Both the position numbers and the translations under genes were made by a program. Positions 2,393 through 23,872 of a DNA stretch of 35,190 nucleotides are shown here, piece after piece (position 1 is the stretch's first letter; every line of letters begins with the position of its first letter). Origin of the DNA: Candidatus Nanohalalkaliarchaeum halalkaliphilum (GTDB lineage: Archaea > Nanohalarchaeota > Nanosalinia > Nanosalinales > Nanohalalkaliarchaeaceae); the NCBI GenBank assembly GCA_022729315.1, contig JALDAF010000005.1:1-35190 (forward strand), in the 5' to 3' direction. The notes below the pieces were generated by a model. That model made no database searches. It saw only the letters and a program-made list of their open reading frames with translations, and had not been told where the DNA came from.

Positions 2393-3877
2393 CTATGCCC
2401 GCTCGATCAATGGTTCTTTCTGGCTGCGGACCCGGACAGATTCCCGGCCTTCCAGCTCGGATTTCGCATCGGAAAGCTTGTCCTGGTTCTCGGCGTGGAT
2501 GGTGAACAGGACGTCATCCTCCTCAACCGTGTCACCCACCTTTTTGTGCAGGTAGATCCCGGCGCCCTGATCCTTCGGTGCACCGGCCCTCCGCGCCACG
2601 TCCGTGACAGTCCGGTTGTTGATGTGGGTCACGGTCCCGCTCCGGGTGGCGTGTACGTGCTCGGTCAGATCCCCGACCGCCAGGTCATCACTCTCCACGT
2701 CCGGGTCGCCGTTCTGCGCACCCACGATCTCCTGGAACTTCTCCAGTGCCGCACCTGATTCAAGGATTTCGGTGGCTGATTCGTCCACAGCACACAGGTC
2801 GAACAGTGTGTCAGCAAGCCGGATACTCTTCAACTTCAGATCCTCCGGCCCCTCCCCGTGCAGCACGTCCAATACGTCACGCGCCTCCAGAACCGGGCCA
2901 ACACCGTTTCCGATCGGTTCACTGCCGCGGGTGATGGTGCAGGACACCTCCATTCCGAGGTGGGATCCGATCTTGTTGAAGTCGTACGCCATCTCCCGTG
3001 CCTTCTCCAGATCGTCCACCTTCGATCCCTCGCCGTACGGGATGTCGATCACGACATGCGTGGATCCGGCGCTCCGCTTCTTCGACAGGACGGATGCCAG
3101 CACCTGGCCGTCCGGATCGATGGACAGCGGGTGTTCCGCCCGGATGATCTTGTCGTCGACCGGTGACAGGTTGACGGCACCACCCCACACCATGCAGCCC
3201 CCGGTCTCGCTCACGATCTCCTTGATCTCATCGACGGAGAAGTTGACATCACACAGGACCTCCACCGTGTCCGCGGTCCCCGCCGGCGACGTGATGGCAC
3301 GGGACGACGTCTTCGGCACGTTGATGCCGGCAGCAGCCACGATCGGTACGATGATCGGGGTGACACGGTTCCCGGCCACACCACCGATACTGTGCTTGTC
3401 AGCGATGATCTCACCACTCCACTCGATGGTGTCACCGATCTCGGTCATCGCCTCTGTGAGGTGAACGGTCTCATCCATGGACAGGTTGTTCGCGTATATC
3501 CCGGACACGTACCCGCTGAGCTCCACATCGTTCAACCGGTTCTCATTGATATCCTTGATGATGGTATCGATCTGGGCCCGGCTCAACTCCCGGTCATCCA
3601 GTTTCCGCCTGATATACTTGACGGAGTCCGGTTTCGGTGCCACCTCCACCTCGACCGTCCCTGACAGGTAGTCCAGTTTCCGGGTCACCCCGATAGTCCC
3701 TGATTCGACCAGTTCCTCCGTGATATCCACGATACCGACCGTGTTATGCTCCTCATGATGGATCTCAATACGGTCCAGGGGCTGCACCCCCAGCTCCGCT
3801 GCATCCTGTTTGTTCACGACCACGGTCGGTGACTTCGTCTCCATATCGATGTTCTCAACTGTTAACTCCATCAACAA
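2393..3877 (-). CDS. deoA: AMP phosphorylase (archaeal thymidine-phosphorylase family)
   Basis: About 494 aa; glycosyltransferase-family-3 motifs (DKHSIGGVAGNRVTPIIVPIVAAAG, KTSSRAITSPAGTADTVEVL, LSKKRSAGSTHVVIDIPYG) plus the N-terminal domain typical of archaeal AMPpase. Confidence 0.93.
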   Translation of the reverse strand: MLMELTVENIDMETKSPTVVVNKQDAAELGVQPLDRIEIHHEEHNTVGIVDITEELVESGTIGVTRKLDYLSGTVEVEVAPKPDSVKYIRRKLDDRELSRAQIDTIIKDINENRLNDVELSGYVSGIYANNLSMDETVHLTEAMTEIGDTIEWSGEIIADKHSIGGVAGNRVTPIIVPIVAAAGINVPKTSSRAITSPAGTADTVEVLCDVNFSVDEIKEIVSETGGCMVWGGAVNLSPVDDKIIRAEHPLSIDPDGQVLASVLSKKRSAGSTHVVIDIPYGEGSKVDDLEKAREMAYDFNKIGSHLGMEVSCTITRGSEPIGNGVGPVLEARDVLDVLHGEGPEDLKLKSIRLADTLFDLCAVDESATEILESGAALEKFQEIVGAQNGDPDVESDDLAVGDLTEHVHATRSGTVTHINNRTVTDVARRAGAPKDQGAGIYLHKKVGDTVEEDDVLFTIHAENQDKLSDAKSELEGRESVRVRSQKEPLIERA

Positions 3878-3954
3878 TCCCCTTCATCCCAATATCTGGA
3901 ATCAGTATAGCATACGTGGGTCCACACCCTTATCACTCTTTTCCACACGTTCAC

Positions 3955-4224
3955 TTATGCACCGTGTTTCCGCCGTACCAGAAGCAGCAGCACGTACTCG
4001 GTCGCCGTAAACATCGTCATCGTTACGGAGAACAGGACCAGCGGCAGATCACGCACCGTGAACGCGTAATACGTCAACAACAGGCTCCCAACAACGTACA
4101 GCAACACGTACCGCGTCTCAACCTCCAGCGGCCCCACCGACTCGTACAGCCGGTACCGCTGCACCATCCACACCAGGGGAAACACCACGGCCGCCACGAT
4201 CCCAGCAAGCTCCGACATACCCAC
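3955..4224 (-). CDS. Small multi-TM membrane protein of unknown function
   Basis: 89 aa with 3 hydrophobic segments; lies between AMPpase and RuBisCO on the same strand. Confidence 0.6.
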   Translation of the reverse strand: MGMSELAGIVAAVVFPLVWMVQRYRLYESVGPLEVETRYVLLYVVGSLLLTYYAFTVRDLPLVLFSVTMTMFTATEYVLLLLVRRKHGA

Positions 4225-4278
4225 TCATTCACCGGACAGGCTTTTGTAGCTACCGCGACTATCGCGGAGACCGTGTCC

Positions 4279-4301
4279 ACACCGTTCTTCTAGAACGGTG
4301 T
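4279..4301. terminator. Perfect 9-bp stem hairpin downstream of rbcL
   Basis: ACACCGTTC-TTCTA-GAACGGTGT. Confidence 0.55.
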
Positions 4302-4322
4302 TATAAGAGGCGATTCTGACCC

Positions 4323-4347
4323 GCAGCATTCTCTGTGAGATTGCTGC
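4323..4347. terminator. 10/11-bp stem hairpin downstream of rbcL
   Basis: GCAGCATTCTC-TGT-GAGATTGCTGC. Confidence 0.5.
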
Positions 4348-4351
4348 TCGA

Positions 4352-4377
4352 AGAGTCACCGCTAGCGAGGTGACTCT
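4352..4377. terminator. 9-bp stem hairpin overlapping the rbcL stop codon
   Basis: AGAGTCACC-GCTAGCGA-GGTGACTCT. Confidence 0.5.
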
Positions 4378-5654
4378 GACCCCCACTTCTCCAGTGCCTG
4401 TCCCAGTTCTTCGTGTTCCTGGCCAGCAGAGGCGAGGTCGTCGCCGTCCACGACGGCATCGATCGCCTGCCGCAGAGCTTTCGCACCGTCATGGGTGCCG
4501 CCGGGATGGCCGTGCACACCGCCACCGATCTGAACCCCGATGTTGGTCCCGACACGGTCAACCAGCTCTGACAGGAGCCCGGGATGGAGGCCGCCGGACG
4601 CCATGGGAAGCACATCCTTTTTCCCGTACAGGTCGCTGTACATCCATTCGTTGATGCCGACCGTGTCCTCGTTCTCCAGCTTCCCCAGGTTCGCCGTCCC
4701 GGTATGGAGCTGGTCGACACCGATGATGCGGGCGAACTGTGCTATGCACCGCATGGACACGCCGTGGGTCGGTACGCGGTCGAACCCGGCGTGCATGGCA
4801 CGGTGGGCGTGGATCGCCAGCCCCAGCTCCTCCGTCTTTTCCCGCACGGTCTGCAGCGCGGCCCAGCCCGTGGTGATGATGTCCACCATCACGTATTCGC
4901 CGCCCTGCTCGTGCACGAACTCGGCCCGTTTCTTCATGGTGTCCGCATCCGCCGTGATATTGATAAGGTACGACTTTTTCTCACCGGTCTCCTGCTCCGC
5001 CCGGTCACGGGCCTTCAAACTCTCCACGACCCGTTTCTCGAACCGGTTGAAGCTCTGACTGGTCAGGTTCTCGTCATCCTTCAGCAGGTCGATACCGCCG
5101 GTCCACGCCTCGTACCCGACCTCAACGTGCTGTTCCGTGGTCAGCCCGACCTTGGGCTTGGGAACGGTCGCGGTGATCGGCCGGTCCCCCGCATCGAATA
5201 TCTCGTTCCGCACCGAACTCCCGTACTGCGGCCCAAGGAACGGTTCCACGAGGGGTTCCGGCCATTCACAGTCCATGAGCCGGATCCGGTCCACCGCCTT
5301 CATCCCCAGGATGTTCCCGGCAATACATGATAATATCTGTGGTATACTGGGCGTCCCGTTCAAGGGATCGGTGTCACCGCCGTCAACGGTGAGCTCGAAC
5401 AGTTCCGGTCCGTACGCCACCTTGATGGTTCCATGTTCCTCGTCCAGGTCGTACGCGGTCGCGCTCATGTCTTTGATGCGTTGATCCACCTGGAGTTCCG
5501 CCCACGTCCCGTTCGAACTTTCGGAGGCGACCCGTCCGGCTGCGTCCTCCATGCTTAACCCTTCCGCAGGTTCGATATAGAATTCACATACCAGCTCTGT
5601 TTCATCCGGTTCGTATCCGTCCGCAAGAAAGTCTTCATACTTGATGCCGACCAT
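4362..5654 (-). CDS. rbcL: Ribulose-1,5-bisphosphate carboxylase/oxygenase large subunit, archaeal form III type
   Basis: Catalytic motifs intact: TVPKPKVGLT (catalytic Lys), GGIDLLKDDENLTSQ (carbamylated Lys and metal-binding Asp/Glu), IHAHRAMHAGFDR (catalytic His), LHTGTANLGKLE, ASGGLHPG, QIGGGVHGHPGG. Confidence 0.96.
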   Translation of the reverse strand: MVGIKYEDFLADGYEPDETELVCEFYIEPAEGLSMEDAAGRVASESSNGTWAELQVDQRIKDMSATAYDLDEEHGTIKVAYGPELFELTVDGGDTDPLNGTPSIPQILSCIAGNILGMKAVDRIRLMDCEWPEPLVEPFLGPQYGSSVRNEIFDAGDRPITATVPKPKVGLTTEQHVEVGYEAWTGGIDLLKDDENLTSQSFNRFEKRVVESLKARDRAEQETGEKKSYLINITADADTMKKRAEFVHEQGGEYVMVDIITTGWAALQTVREKTEELGLAIHAHRAMHAGFDRVPTHGVSMRCIAQFARIIGVDQLHTGTANLGKLENEDTVGINEWMYSDLYGKKDVLPMASGGLHPGLLSELVDRVGTNIGVQIGGGVHGHPGGTHDGAKALRQAIDAVVDGDDLASAGQEHEELGQALEKWGSESPR

Positions 5655-5715
5655 TGTCGTTCACACCTGTAACTGCGGCATGCCGGCTTTTAAGCGTTGT
5701 AGTGTGTTCCACGGG

Positions 5716-7854
5716 TTAGATTATTTCGTCGTACCAGTCGTCCGCGACCAGTGTCTCCACGTTCTTGTTCTGGTGCTCGATATCGCGGCCAACCTGGTCC
5801 GCGTACTGCTCCGTGAACTTCTGCAGGTAGATTTCGAGTCCTGGCACGTGGCGGTACGGCCGGAAGGTGGAGAGTGTGCCGTCCTCGTTGAATCCGATAA
5901 GCTGTCTCCCGATCACGGTATCGTCCTCGTTCTTCAGGTAGACGACCTGCTTGTTCACGTCCGCTGCGTTCGCCACGGTACTCCAGTTGTTCATCCCGTC
6001 AGCGCTGAGGCACGTGTCGAAGTGCGTCCCCATGTTGAGTGCATCAAGCGGTTCAGCGATCTCGGCGTGAAGACGGTCCGGCAGCTGACCCTCCTCGTAT
6101 GCGTTCTCCGTCTTTTCCCGCATCGTCCTGTACAGGGATTCAGCAAGTTCCGGCAGGTTCTCCATGGTTTCTTCGAGATCCTTATCTGGATCGTAGGTAA
6201 AGAGCTCAGGTGCATCAAGAAGCTGTTTCAGGTCCTCGATGTTACGGCCTTTCTTCTGCGCCAGCGCTATAGTTTCAAGGACGTAGGGTTCCTGTTCGTC
6301 GATATACGCGGTGATGTCATCCATTGAGGGATGATACGTTACCTCCAGACCGGTTAACTCATCCGTATCGTATCCGTTTTGATCCATCCACTCCTGGTTT
6401 GCAGGATGCTGGTAGATATCGTTTCCCTCCTCCAGCAGGCGCTCTGCTGTTTCAACGTTGTTCTCGTCTTCTATCAGGACGTTGATCAGGTGCTGAGTGT
6501 GCTGCGCGAAGTCGCTGTCCCAGGACAGGTAGTCCGGGAACCGGTCTGCGACGCGCTTTGCGTTCTCAAGGTACGTCTTGTCGTCTTCGACCAGTTCCTG
6601 GAGGTGTTCGAGGTGGTCTGGAACCGTGTCTACCTCATCGACCGGTATCGTTTCTCCAGTGATTGTCTCGTACCAGTTTGCGATACTGTGTTTCTTCGCA
6701 TGTTCAGCGAGTTGAACGGTATAGGCAGGAAGCTTTGACGCGATCTCCTTTTCAAGCATCGCTTCCAGCTCATCCTGGTCGATATTTCGTCCATGCCCGT
6801 GCTGACGCTGGTACTCCCACTGTTTTACCCGGTCCACCGTTGACAGTTCAGGATCGTTGCCGGTGACTGTTCTGGACAGCGCCGTAAGCGCGTCCAGTTC
6901 ATCGCTGTACGCATCGAACGCCTTCACGAGGTGGTCGTGGTATGGGGAATCCACCAGCATGGGGTCAAGACCGGGGAGACCACCGTTGCTACCGAGAGCA
7001 CCGGTGAGATGGTCGATGACCGTCTCATCGTCGGGTGCGTACACGACATGATCGCCTATCTCAGTAAAGTACACACCAAGCTCGTCATCGCCCGCTCGGA
7101 GATTGGAGAGGAGCTGATCCTGTGCCACACCCGGAAGATCCTGAAACAGTCGACCGAACTCGTTCAGGCCGAGATAGTGCTTGTCGCCGTCAACCCGTTC
7201 GAGATCCTGCAGCAGTGTTCCCAGTTCATCATCTCTGAGTGCATCGTATTTGTCTATCAGTCCTGGATAGATGTCGTCCCGGGATGTATCACCGAGGTAC
7301 TGCCGATACTGGTTCTCCAACTCATCAAGTGTCTTGTAGTCCACGGTGTCCGGCAGATCCGGCTGGTACACCTGCAGCCCGAGGAACCGGTTCTCATCCT
7401 CACGCAGTTCCCCTGCAACCTCCTCCAGATCGCCGTCATATGTCGGGAACCCGTCGTCAGGATCGTTCGTCAATGCAAGGATATCATCGGTATATTCGTC
7501 GACATCAATCCGGTCCGCGAGCACAACTGCACCGTATGTGTCCTCATCAAGCACAGGTGCCTCGATCGTGCCGTACACGATAACGCGCTTCATGTCGCTA
7601 TTCGATAACGCAGCTTCTCCGGCAGAGATTTTGTCCGCTGCCAGCACCTCAGACCTGTGCAGTGCTGTTTCCCCGGCAGAGATCGTTCCAGCCTGCTCTA
7701 CTGTGGACTCATACAGTGCCTGACCATCAACAGTGATATCGCCCACTGATCCAATGTAGGTGCTATAGGCTCCGTCTTCCCCCTTGATCGCTGCCATCGC
7801 ATCGATCGAGTCATCATGCACCGCGTACCACCGCGGCCTGTACTCCCTAGCCAT
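5716..7854 (-). CDS. Large acidic orphan protein with N-terminal short repeats and a C-terminal GTHFDTCLS…ANAADVNKQVVYLKN…GRQLIGF module
   Basis: 712-aa uninterrupted acidic ORF with a TATA box about 26 nt upstream of ATG; no family recognised. Confidence 0.85.
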   Translation of the reverse strand: MAREYRPRWYAVHDDSIDAMAAIKGEDGAYSTYIGSVGDITVDGQALYESTVEQAGTISAGETALHRSEVLAADKISAGEAALSNSDMKRVIVYGTIEAPVLDEDTYGAVVLADRIDVDEYTDDILALTNDPDDGFPTYDGDLEEVAGELREDENRFLGLQVYQPDLPDTVDYKTLDELENQYRQYLGDTSRDDIYPGLIDKYDALRDDELGTLLQDLERVDGDKHYLGLNEFGRLFQDLPGVAQDQLLSNLRAGDDELGVYFTEIGDHVVYAPDDETVIDHLTGALGSNGGLPGLDPMLVDSPYHDHLVKAFDAYSDELDALTALSRTVTGNDPELSTVDRVKQWEYQRQHGHGRNIDQDELEAMLEKEIASKLPAYTVQLAEHAKKHSIANWYETITGETIPVDEVDTVPDHLEHLQELVEDDKTYLENAKRVADRFPDYLSWDSDFAQHTQHLINVLIEDENNVETAERLLEEGNDIYQHPANQEWMDQNGYDTDELTGLEVTYHPSMDDITAYIDEQEPYVLETIALAQKKGRNIEDLKQLLDAPELFTYDPDKDLEETMENLPELAESLYRTMREKTENAYEEGQLPDRLHAEIAEPLDALNMGTHFDTCLSADGMNNWSTVANAADVNKQVVYLKNEDDTVIGRQLIGFNEDGTLSTFRPYRHVPGLEIYLQKFTEQYADQVGRDIEHQNKNVETLVADDWYDEII

Positions 7855-7856
7855 AA

Positions 7857-7875
7857 GTTACTACTTGTAAGTGAC
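7857..7875. promoter_or_regulatory. Operator-like inverted repeat GTTACT-N7-AGTGAC between TATA and ATG of the 712-aa gene
   Basis: Arms GTTACT/AGTGAC (5 Watson-Crick pairs plus one G-T) located at -3 to -21 from the ATG. Confidence 0.4.
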
Positions 7876-7876
7876 A

Positions 7877-7884
7877 ATATAAAA
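7877..7884 (-). promoter_or_regulatory. TATA box of the 712-aa gene
   Basis: Minus strand CTTTTTATATTG, centred about 26 nt from ATG (7854), consistent with a leaderless archaeal transcript. Confidence 0.55.
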
Positions 7885-7926
7885 AGAAATGTGTGCTGGA
7901 GTACGTATAAACGGATCAGAACAGGT

Positions 7927-8790
7927 CTACTCCTCCTCGGTCCCGGTCAGTTCGTGGTAGTTCCGGTCGGCGTGGTCCACGAACGTCTCCGGGTTGTAGG
8001 AGCCGATGTCGGAGACGATGGCATCGATGTGTTCCGCGGAGATCCGTTCGAACGCATAGTTCATGACCTGTACGTTGTCCGGTGCGTCCTCCCACACCTC
8101 GCTTCCACGGCGCTTCTCCCGTTCCTCCACGTGGTCGAAGACGGTGCGGTGATCGAATTTCCAGGAGTCCGTCAGCACGTAGACAGGAATCTCCCGTACC
8201 TGTGCGGCCTCCGCGAACAGTTCGCTTCCGATCTTGTTCAGCACGTGCCCCGAACTGGTGACCGCGTCCGCACCGAGCATCACCATGTCAGCGTCCTGCA
8301 GTGCGAGCCGTGCACCGCTATCCACGTAGTGCTTCACCGGGATACCAGCGTCCGCCAGTTCCTTTGCCGTGTCCCGTCCCTGGAACAGGGGCCGTGTCTC
8401 CGTGTTGTGCACTGTTACCTGCTGGTCCAGTTCGTCCGCGGCGTGGATGAGGGTACCGACCACGGTAGAGGAGTGGCAGTGCGTGAACACGGTGTCACCG
8501 TCCTCAAAAAGGTCTGCCGCGGCCCTGTGGATGTCGTCCTGGGCCGAGTCGATGTGGGCAAGCACCCGTTCAAAGTCTTCCGTGCTGAGCGCGATATCGA
8601 TCGCGTTGAACAGGAACGGTTCGGTTGGCCGCACCCCTTTCAACCGTTCGGCTACGGCCTCAATCCGCTGCTGATGGATCCCGTCGTCATGCATCTCCTG
8701 CAGCAGCTCGACACCTGCCCGGGCCACCGCGGTTGCCCCCTGGATCTCGATATTCTCGATCTTTTTGATCACTGCATCGGGATCGGCCAT
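7927..8790 (-). CDS. e2b2: Ribose-1,5-bisphosphate isomerase (eIF2B-alpha/MtnA-like fold)
   Basis: IENIEIQGATAVARAGVELL, FTHCHSSTVVGTL, NTETRPLFQGRDTAKELADAGIPV, MVMLGADAVTSSGHVLNKIGS; partner of the AMPpase and RuBisCO encoded here. Confidence 0.92.
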   Translation of the reverse strand: MADPDAVIKKIENIEIQGATAVARAGVELLQEMHDDGIHQQRIEAVAERLKGVRPTEPFLFNAIDIALSTEDFERVLAHIDSAQDDIHRAAADLFEDGDTVFTHCHSSTVVGTLIHAADELDQQVTVHNTETRPLFQGRDTAKELADAGIPVKHYVDSGARLALQDADMVMLGADAVTSSGHVLNKIGSELFAEAAQVREIPVYVLTDSWKFDHRTVFDHVEEREKRRGSEVWEDAPDNVQVMNYAFERISAEHIDAIVSDIGSYNPETFVDHADRNYHELTGTEEE

Positions 8791-18142: not shown

Positions 18143-18440
18143 ACTCTCATATTACAGCATCTGGTATATATTATGCCTTGCCAGAACACGCTTCCGATAG
18201 GACGGCAGTTGAAGCAGCAGTTCCGGAGAAGGTCCCAGACAGCATCCTCACCGTACTCATCAACGAGGTACATCGACAAAACGTGCCCGCCGTGGTACAT
18301 GTTATCCGCAATGGTTGAAAAGTCACCGTCCCCCCCGAAATCGTCTCGTTCAAATCCTCAACAGCCCCTGGGGGGGAACTGCTCCTCAACTGTCGGGGTG
18401 TTGTAAACGTAGTATTCAGTCAGGCCGTCCACACCCCAGG
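18135..18440 (-). pseudogene. Remnant of an acidic protein-coding gene (…EYYVYNTPTVEEQFPP…GGDGDFSTIADNMYHGGHVLSMYLVDEYGEDAVWDLLRN…)
   Basis: Protein-like frame interrupted at C7 and G7 homopolymers; ends in a dispersed repeat (18190-18225). Confidence 0.5.
18190..18225. repeat. Dispersed 36-nt repeat copy 1
   Basis: gcttccgataggacggcagttgaagcagcagttccg; 34/36 identical to 23503-23538. Confidence 0.85.
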
Positions 18441-23488: not shown

Positions 23489-23737
23489 GTGCGCTCCCAC
23501 TGGCTTCCGATAGGAAGACAGTTGAAGCAGCAGTTCCGAAGGAACTGATGCGCCCTGGAGGATGTCGAACACGAAACCGTTGGTTTCTCGGTGCGAAACC
23601 TCTAAGAGTGCTCCCTACCGACTTCTCCTGTTGGAGATGGCGGTTGAAGCATCGAACGTATGTGAGATGCGCCCTGGAGGATGTCGAACACGAAGACTGC
23701 GTCTTCTCGGTTCGAATCCTCTTTCTAGCACTGAGAA
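23489..23737. repeat. Two tandem hairpin-rich units (119 and 130 bp) carrying tRNA-Arg 3'-end-like sequences
   Basis: Unit 1 23489-23607, unit 2 23608-23737; both contain tgcgccctggaggatgtcgaacacgaa and a 45-nt palindrome (23558-23602; 23677-23721). Confidence 0.7.
23503..23538. repeat. Dispersed 36-nt repeat copy 2
   Basis: gcttccgataggaagacagttgaagcagcagttccg; 34/36 identical to 18190-18225. Confidence 0.85.
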
Positions 23738-23738
23738 G

Positions 23739-23872
23739 TGCGCCCTGGAGGATTCGAACCCCCGCTCTGCACGTATTTGCATTCGAAAACCTTCCGGTTT
23801 TCTCGTCCTCACACCGTTTAGCACGGAGTTCGGTTCCGCAACGTGCCGTCTTGTCCGCTAGACCAAGGGCGC
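23739..23872 (-). tRNA. tRNA-Arg (anticodon GCG) with an intron of about 61 nt at the canonical 37/38 position
   Basis: Acceptor GCGCCCT/AGGGCGC, D-stem GTCT/AGAC, anticodon stem GCACG/CGTGC, T-arm GGGGG-TTCGAAT-CCTCC; mature loop TTGCGGA; splice sites lie in bulges GG|A and AT|A flanking TTGC:GCAA (BHB-like); no encoded CCA. Confidence 0.88.

Follow-up and report, generated by a model that had tools for sequence, protein, structure and literature searches.

The question raised by this locus is why the 3' end of a tRNA gene recurs in the DNA that follows it, within palindromes that appear to keep their pairing while their sequence drifts. The window, i.e. the whole stretch of 35,190 nucleotides that has been analysed, is contig C73 of the source genome G000, which belongs to the salt-loving Nanohaloarchaeota (1.13 Mb in 78 contigs), and the relatives of this genome in the same order are all small archaeal genomes. 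The initial annotation of the locus had offered three explanations: att scars accreted by integration at the tRNA gene, a hairpin-based recombination substrate, or an undescribed structured RNA cluster derived from a tRNA 3' end. Elsewhere in the window, AMP phosphorylase-like, RuBisCO and ribose-1,5-bisphosphate isomerase-like reading frames lie close together on the minus strand (positions 2393-8790); we take them to be the archaeal AMP pathway, with the names other than RuBisCO assigned from sequence only, and the RuBisCO has its nearest match in Nanohalarchaeota archaeon QJJ-5 (73% identity).

Anatomy of the tRNA-Arg(GCG) array

The tRNA-Arg(GCG) gene is overlooked by ARAGORN because of its intron. 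The part of the gene that is copied downstream is its 3' end, from the T-loop to the discriminator base, which we refer to as “T”, with “T*” denoting its inverted copy. On the strand of the tRNA, the array is ordered as follows: tRNA, T*, module A, T, type C, T*, module A, T, type C (Table 1). The exact 15-nt copies of the tRNA 3' end that had been reported downstream of this minus-strand gene are present at both sites: the 15-mer ATCCTCCAGGGCGCA occurs three times, i.e. in the tRNA-Arg gene itself and in the copies that end at positions 23668 and 23549. Both copies fall within a 57-nt direct repeat (84% identical), and no element or gene lies between the direct repeats of the tRNA end. The palindromes at 23558-23602 (U1) and 23677-23721 (U2) read as previously written; the repeats are 119 nt apart and the spacing from the tRNA to the first T copy is 71 nt, so that the unit sizes differ slightly from the 119 and 130 bp given. 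The view that the units contain no convincing ORF is also borne out, as the overlapping ORFs run through the tRNA and the repeats.

Table 1. Features of the tRNA-Arg(GCG) locus, listed along the strand of the tRNA, with an isolated copy in the last row.
Feature	Position	Strand	Basis
tRNA-Arg(GCG) gene with anticodon-loop intron	23739..23872	-	Rfam RF00005, 47.9 bits; anticodon and putative bulge-helix-bulge by sequence reading
C+A two-hairpin element, body of the tRNA-Arg intron	23781..23833	-	Model R2, 39.9 bits, E 2.9e-7 in own genome (low-scoring member of the R2 training set); model R1, not trained on this copy, 21.2 bits; fold
T* of unit 2: tRNA 3' end in inverted form, spacing retained, 7 altered acceptor-stem bases	23709..23730	-	Sequence; inverted repeat 23709-23721/23748-23760, 100%
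Module A hairpin of unit 2, CGAGAAGACGCAGTCTTCG	23691..23709	-	Sequence
T copy 1, GTTCGACATCCTCCAGGGCGCA, one C more than the tRNA	23668..23689	-	Sequence; repeat search
Type C unit: small stem-loop, TTCA, ACCG-CCA-TCTCC..GGAGA-AGT-CGGT hairpin, altered acceptor end AGGGAGCA	23609..23667	-	Sequence and fold
T* of unit 1, less perfect	23590..23608	-	Sequence; repeat search
Module A hairpin of unit 1, CGAGAAACCAACGGTTTCG	23572..23590	-	Sequence
T copy 2, GTTCGACATCCTCCAGGGCGCA	23549..23570	-	Sequence; repeat search
Second type C unit: CAGTTCC-TTC-GGAACTG stem-loop, ACTG-CTTCC..GGAAG-CAGT hairpin, end GGGAGCGCA	23490..23548	-	Sequence and fold
Intergenic partial copy of a type C unit (39 nt, 92% identity), isolated at 5 kb from the array, no adjoining tRNA	18190..18228	-	Sequence search

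Three features of the locus go beyond the earlier description: T* retains the internal spacing of the tRNA, a second type of unit alternates with the palindromes, and related hairpins are found in the intron of the tRNA-Arg gene. The spacing follows the pattern TGC-7-AGGATTCGAACC, with TGC-TAGAAAG-AGGATTCGAACC in T* and TGC-GCCCTGG-AGGATTCGAACC in the tRNA; the seven altered acceptor-stem bases are located opposite the acceptor strand of T, where they are unpaired. The units of the second type, type C, are closed by TGC..GCA and terminate in an altered acceptor end.

The folding energy of three stretches of the array is better than that of dinucleotide shuffles (z -4.1, -2.6 and -3.2). The covariation of the palindrome stems that had been claimed holds for the inner stem, where GAAACC/GGTTTC in U1 and GAAGAC/GTCTTC in U2 differ by two compensated pair changes; it does not extend to the entire palindrome, because the outer arms, which in U2 are fully paired save for one bulged C, carry two mismatches in U1. 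The second hairpin covaries as proposed (CTTCC/GGAAG and TCTCC/GGAGA). At the intron of the tRNA-Arg gene, exon and intron sequences can be paired as GCACG/CGTGC and TTGC/GCAA, next to the 3-nt bulges GGA and ATA, an arrangement that in the modelled fold looks like a canonical bulge-helix-bulge (BHB).

Units at both ends of tRNA genes, and their turnover

The arrangement at the tRNA-Arg gene is real, and it is not local: most tRNA genes of the genome have the same layout. We have scanned 38 tRNA genes, 20 from the source genome and 18 from G001, a genome of a sister genus in the same family, for a downstream copy of the last 12 nt of each tRNA, with at most 2 mismatches and within 600 nt. Such copies follow 15/20 tRNA genes in G000 and 7/18 in G001, while in the controls the reversed 12-mer is found downstream of 2/38 genes and the true 12-mer upstream of 1/38. 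The T*-hairpin-T units, about 60-130 nt in length, occur one to four per tRNA, at the tRNAs for Phe, Ala, Gly, Asn, Leu, Glu, Gln, Met, Asp, Val, Pro, Ser and Arg.

A copy of the tRNA's own 5' end, which we refer to as “F”, is located upstream of 10 of the 38 tRNAs, mostly in a mirror F-hairpin-F* unit, where F is followed by one or two hairpins, the inverted copy F*, a linker and the tRNA. Since a TTTAAA-like box precedes the outer F by about 30-37 nt in several of these arrays, the entire 5' array is suggested to be a single transcript. In 5 of 14 5' units, F* matches its own tRNA better than any of the 31 others; for T*, only 3 of 37 3' units have their own tRNA as the single best match, and many individual matches are no better than shuffles, in a test that is blunt because T-loops are nearly universal. 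The T* of most 3' units matches this near-universal T-loop, with fits specific to the T-stem in Arg, Val, Asp, Phe and Gly; the reading of T* and F* as inverted copies thus holds well for some units and poorly for others. Exact acceptor ends are retained in diverged units, which hints at selection rather than neutrality. The tail of the tRNA-Gly gene of G014 (L112) ends in ACGCCGCA, closer to the tRNA-Gly end of G000 than to its own, a resemblance that suggests the transfer of a unit between glycine tRNAs.

The units turn over quickly between genera: the orthologous tRNA-Arg gene is followed in G001 by a decayed unit of another type, with no intact copy, and in G014 by no unit, yet a C+A copy is present in its intron, while the tRNA-Glu gene and one tRNA-Leu gene have units in G000 and none in G001. 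Across archaea, the T*-N-T pattern is found in 7 Nanohaloarchaeota genomes, with 2 matches in 297 genomes for the backwards control. T*-hairpin-T units with different inner sequences follow tRNAs in G044 (L206), G248 (L205), G293 (L194) and G242 (L195), which belong to other archaeal families; the linkers of G044 have a common GAGC..AGCGATT-like motif, and upstream of the tRNA-Leu gene of G248 (L205) its 5' half is partly copied, where the D-arm region of the copy has an insertion. A search centred on G044 with a three-part pattern was uninformative, as its spacing was too narrow and missed the arrays of G044 itself.

The C+A element in introns and other RNAs

The inner hairpins of the tRNA-end units are parts of a recurring two-hairpin element of about 51 nt, which we refer to as “C+A”. 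In the 5' units of Ser, Pro and Gln, the two hairpins occur as C then A, in the same order as in the tRNA introns of these genomes. A covariance model of the element (R1), built from 5 natural sequences, matches several copies beyond its training set: one in RNase P RNA (G014, 43.1 bits), others in the introns of tRNA-Thr and tRNA-Leu, and the one in the tRNA-Arg intron of the window (E 0.012). A second model (R2) has been trained on the R1 matches, including one opposite-strand RNase P match of doubtful status. Among 17 aligned copies, 94% of the cells are paired and there are 53 two-sided changes, compared to 15 after shuffling (0/500) and at most 9 with slid partners, figures that should be read with the caution that the alignment had been fitted to the structure; MAFFT alignments, which aligned the hairpins poorly, have been left out of the analysis. 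R2 matches occur in 19 of the 28 Nanohaloarchaeota genomes of the order and in 4 of 92 other archaea, all four of them weak; G014 and G025 have the most (17 each), followed by G000 and G001 (12 each), where the counts for these four genomes and for G010 include training copies and the remaining genomes are independent. Of the outcomes that had been named as contrary to the initial annotation, two, i.e. no copies in relatives and no preserved pairing, have been checked by comparison between genera: copies are found and the pairing is preserved.

Above the Rfam gathering score, the window contains only the tRNA, and the C+A loci only their tRNA and RNase P contexts, with nothing convincing below the threshold. 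Two known motifs have been set aside after inspection by eye: an H/ACA guide RNA, where a pocket-like loop is present but its loop sequences match no tRNA target and the 3' end is GCA instead of an ANA box, and a K-turn, where module A is flanked by GA-like pairs but many copies have only part of the motif.

Copies of C+A are located within tRNA introns as well as on either side of tRNAs; in G014, additional copies occur about 30 nt before the 16S gene, in the 16S leader, and about 36 nt past the 3' end of 23S, with the rRNA on one side and, on the other, inverted sequences resembling the 23S processing stem. C+A also closely precedes a ribosomal protein gene, from its sequence probably L18e, in two genera; the copies before this gene in G014 (L277:553-602) and G025 (L283:3122-3173) are oppositely oriented. 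Inside RNase P RNA, C+A is present in G014 and G010 and not in G003; the two-hairpin inserts of L218 (G014 C1:267600-268200) and L219 (G010), absent from G003, lower the Rfam score. RNase P RNA was found in the bearers G014 and G010, with no match in G000, G001, G008 and G017, which such inserts may account for. All contexts other than RNase P are expected to lie in RNA that is to be removed or untranslated, while the copy in RNase P RNA may lie in the mature RNA. The substrates of the splicing endonuclease in Haloferax volcanii include introns of tRNA and rRNA precursors and of one mRNA 5' UTR (PMC7714728); the contexts of C+A fall into the same classes.

The BHB motif has been defined here as two 3-nt bulges separated by a 4-bp helix, located at the exon borders. 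Folds and sequence reveal it in the tRNA-Arg intron (GGA / TTGC-GCAA / ATA) and in L226, and in the folds of both introns C+A is situated directly behind it. By the same strict motif, no more than the 5' 3-nt bulge is seen in U1, U2 and two Pro 5' units. An automatic BHB scan gave no match, because the inner side is a three-way junction.

Origin of the units and comparison with known systems

The anatomy, recurrence, covariation, contexts and turnover described above are our observations, and the results support a structured, lineage-wide family of insertions that is related to introns. Among the initial suggestions, the third, a structured RNA cluster, comes closest, with the amendment that the layout is genome-wide, that it is mirrored at the 5' ends, and that its covarying core is common to introns and precursor RNAs. 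We give roughly even chances to the explanation that the units are structured, intron-like insertions in tRNA leaders and trailers, harmless since they are removed. The units would be built from direct and inverted copies of the host tRNA end, combined with C+A hairpin modules. The array would probably be transcribed together with the tRNA, and each T* would pair with the next T copy, closing the unit on itself and leaving the real tRNA free to fold, so that maturation at the first 3' end could discard the tail. The elements may persist as passengers because they are sited in RNA that is removed, i.e. introns, tRNA leaders and trailers, and the rRNA leader and trailer. Our preferred guess for the origin of the T-T*-T or F-F*-F order is that replication switched templates at the tRNA end, the loop being where modules were inserted. 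A broader proposal, which we consider tentatively, is that these insertions form a new class in Nanohaloarchaeota, tiny and non-coding, which spreads as RNA insertions: the two-hairpin element would settle at precursor sites removed by processing, and the copies of the tRNA end would bring both an exon and its complement, the tRNA working whether the insert is spliced, trimmed or neither.

The main rival is a role of the units in end maturation, which we judge rather unlikely: the hairpins would recruit or position EndA or other enzymes, or splicing would join the tRNA to the outer T or F as an alternative exon, the tRNA being intact either way. The same module in EndA-type introns, the BHB-like helix of the Arg intron and L226, the presence of units at both tRNA ends with acceptor ends kept exact, the fit of the contexts to known EndA substrate classes and the four genomes with no RNase P RNA match all speak for such a role; against it, the Arg and Pro units examined do not have a second 3-nt bulge, many tRNAs of the same genomes have no unit, and RNase P RNA is present in two bearers, so its absence elsewhere may reflect inserts or incompleteness. 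It is improbable that the units are palindromes of the DNA level only, formed by template switching at heavily transcribed tRNA genes in the E-E*-E order and kept paired by palindrome correction instead of by RNA: the alternation of direct and inverted copies at both tRNA ends, and the similar T*-N-T layouts that a few distant archaea have around different inner sequences, would be expected, but the inner hairpins are a recurring, covarying family common to introns, RNase P RNA and rRNA spacers, and not random loops.

A mobile DNA element (MITE-like, casposon-like or a hairpin transposon) that targets tRNA ends and duplicates its target on insertion is a shade less probable still, even with the inserts flanked by direct copies, the dispersed partial copy of Table 1 and the opposite orientations before the same ribosomal protein gene. 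Cas1 has no match in G000 and G001 (75-78% complete) or in G014 (95% complete), no reverse transcriptase was found in these three genomes, and Y1 transposase is found in 0 of the 28 genomes of the order; the copied length differs by unit type, the ends of the element are not fixed, and two IMG/VR scans gave chance matches only and phage records none. The same lack of Cas1 in the main bearers removes CRISPR-like and casposon arrays from consideration, and it weighs, with that of Y1 transposase and reverse transcriptase, on the hairpin-based recombination substrate of the initial annotation, which keeps some plausibility. Because no such enzyme and no viral or phage carrier has been found, host processes are the more likely sources, i.e. 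template switching for E-E*-E and gain of intron modules in the loops. Least probable by far are att scars accreted as an integrase inserted elements at the tRNA 3' end. The exact 15-nt copies counted in their favour, as did the fact that archaeal tRNA genes are common sites of integration (PMC9897764, PMC3293823), but we have rejected them on account of a layout found at most tRNA genes and mirrored at the 5' ends, with units on both sides of the tRNA and no inserted genes; nor would integration lead us to expect inverted copies, conserved inner hairpins and 5' versions.

How archaeal tRNA introns originate and spread is an open question. One covarying module that occurs as an intron body, in rRNA spacers, in RNase P RNA and as tRNA-end tails, with copy numbers that differ between sister genera, offers a natural series for testing intron gain; it also provides candidate substrates of the splicing endonuclease beyond introns, and explains why tRNA finders stumble in these genomes.

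We have found no earlier description of these units in the open-access literature, and the known systems that they resemble differ from them in several respects. One likeness is to the BHB introns that EndA removes: several tRNA introns here have C+A as their body, and that of Arg has an apparently canonical BHB; to our knowledge, BHB introns have no conserved body, and the tRNA-end units examined differ from them in having copies of the tRNA ends and no second bulge. The tRNA fragments left by integrative elements are also direct copies of a tRNA 3' end adjoining the gene; unlike these, the units are about 60-130 nt long, contain inverted copies and conserved hairpins, have 5' versions, and affect most tRNA genes. 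In the tRNA-Thr of Caldiarchaeum, an intron was gained together with a 5' tRNA fragment, in a 1.8-kb recombinase-encoding insert at one locus (PMC3293823); the combination of intron gain and a partial tRNA copy is the same, but here the units are tiny, non-coding and spread over many loci. Lastly, about half of the tRNA genes of Methanopyrus kandleri are followed, about 10 bp downstream, by a palindrome that has been proposed as a processing signal (PMC5217627); these palindromes share their position downstream of tRNA genes with the units of Nanohaloarchaeota, while being a short, fixed CGTTA(N)9TAACG motif, reported to be specific to M. kandleri, that does not contain copies of the tRNA.
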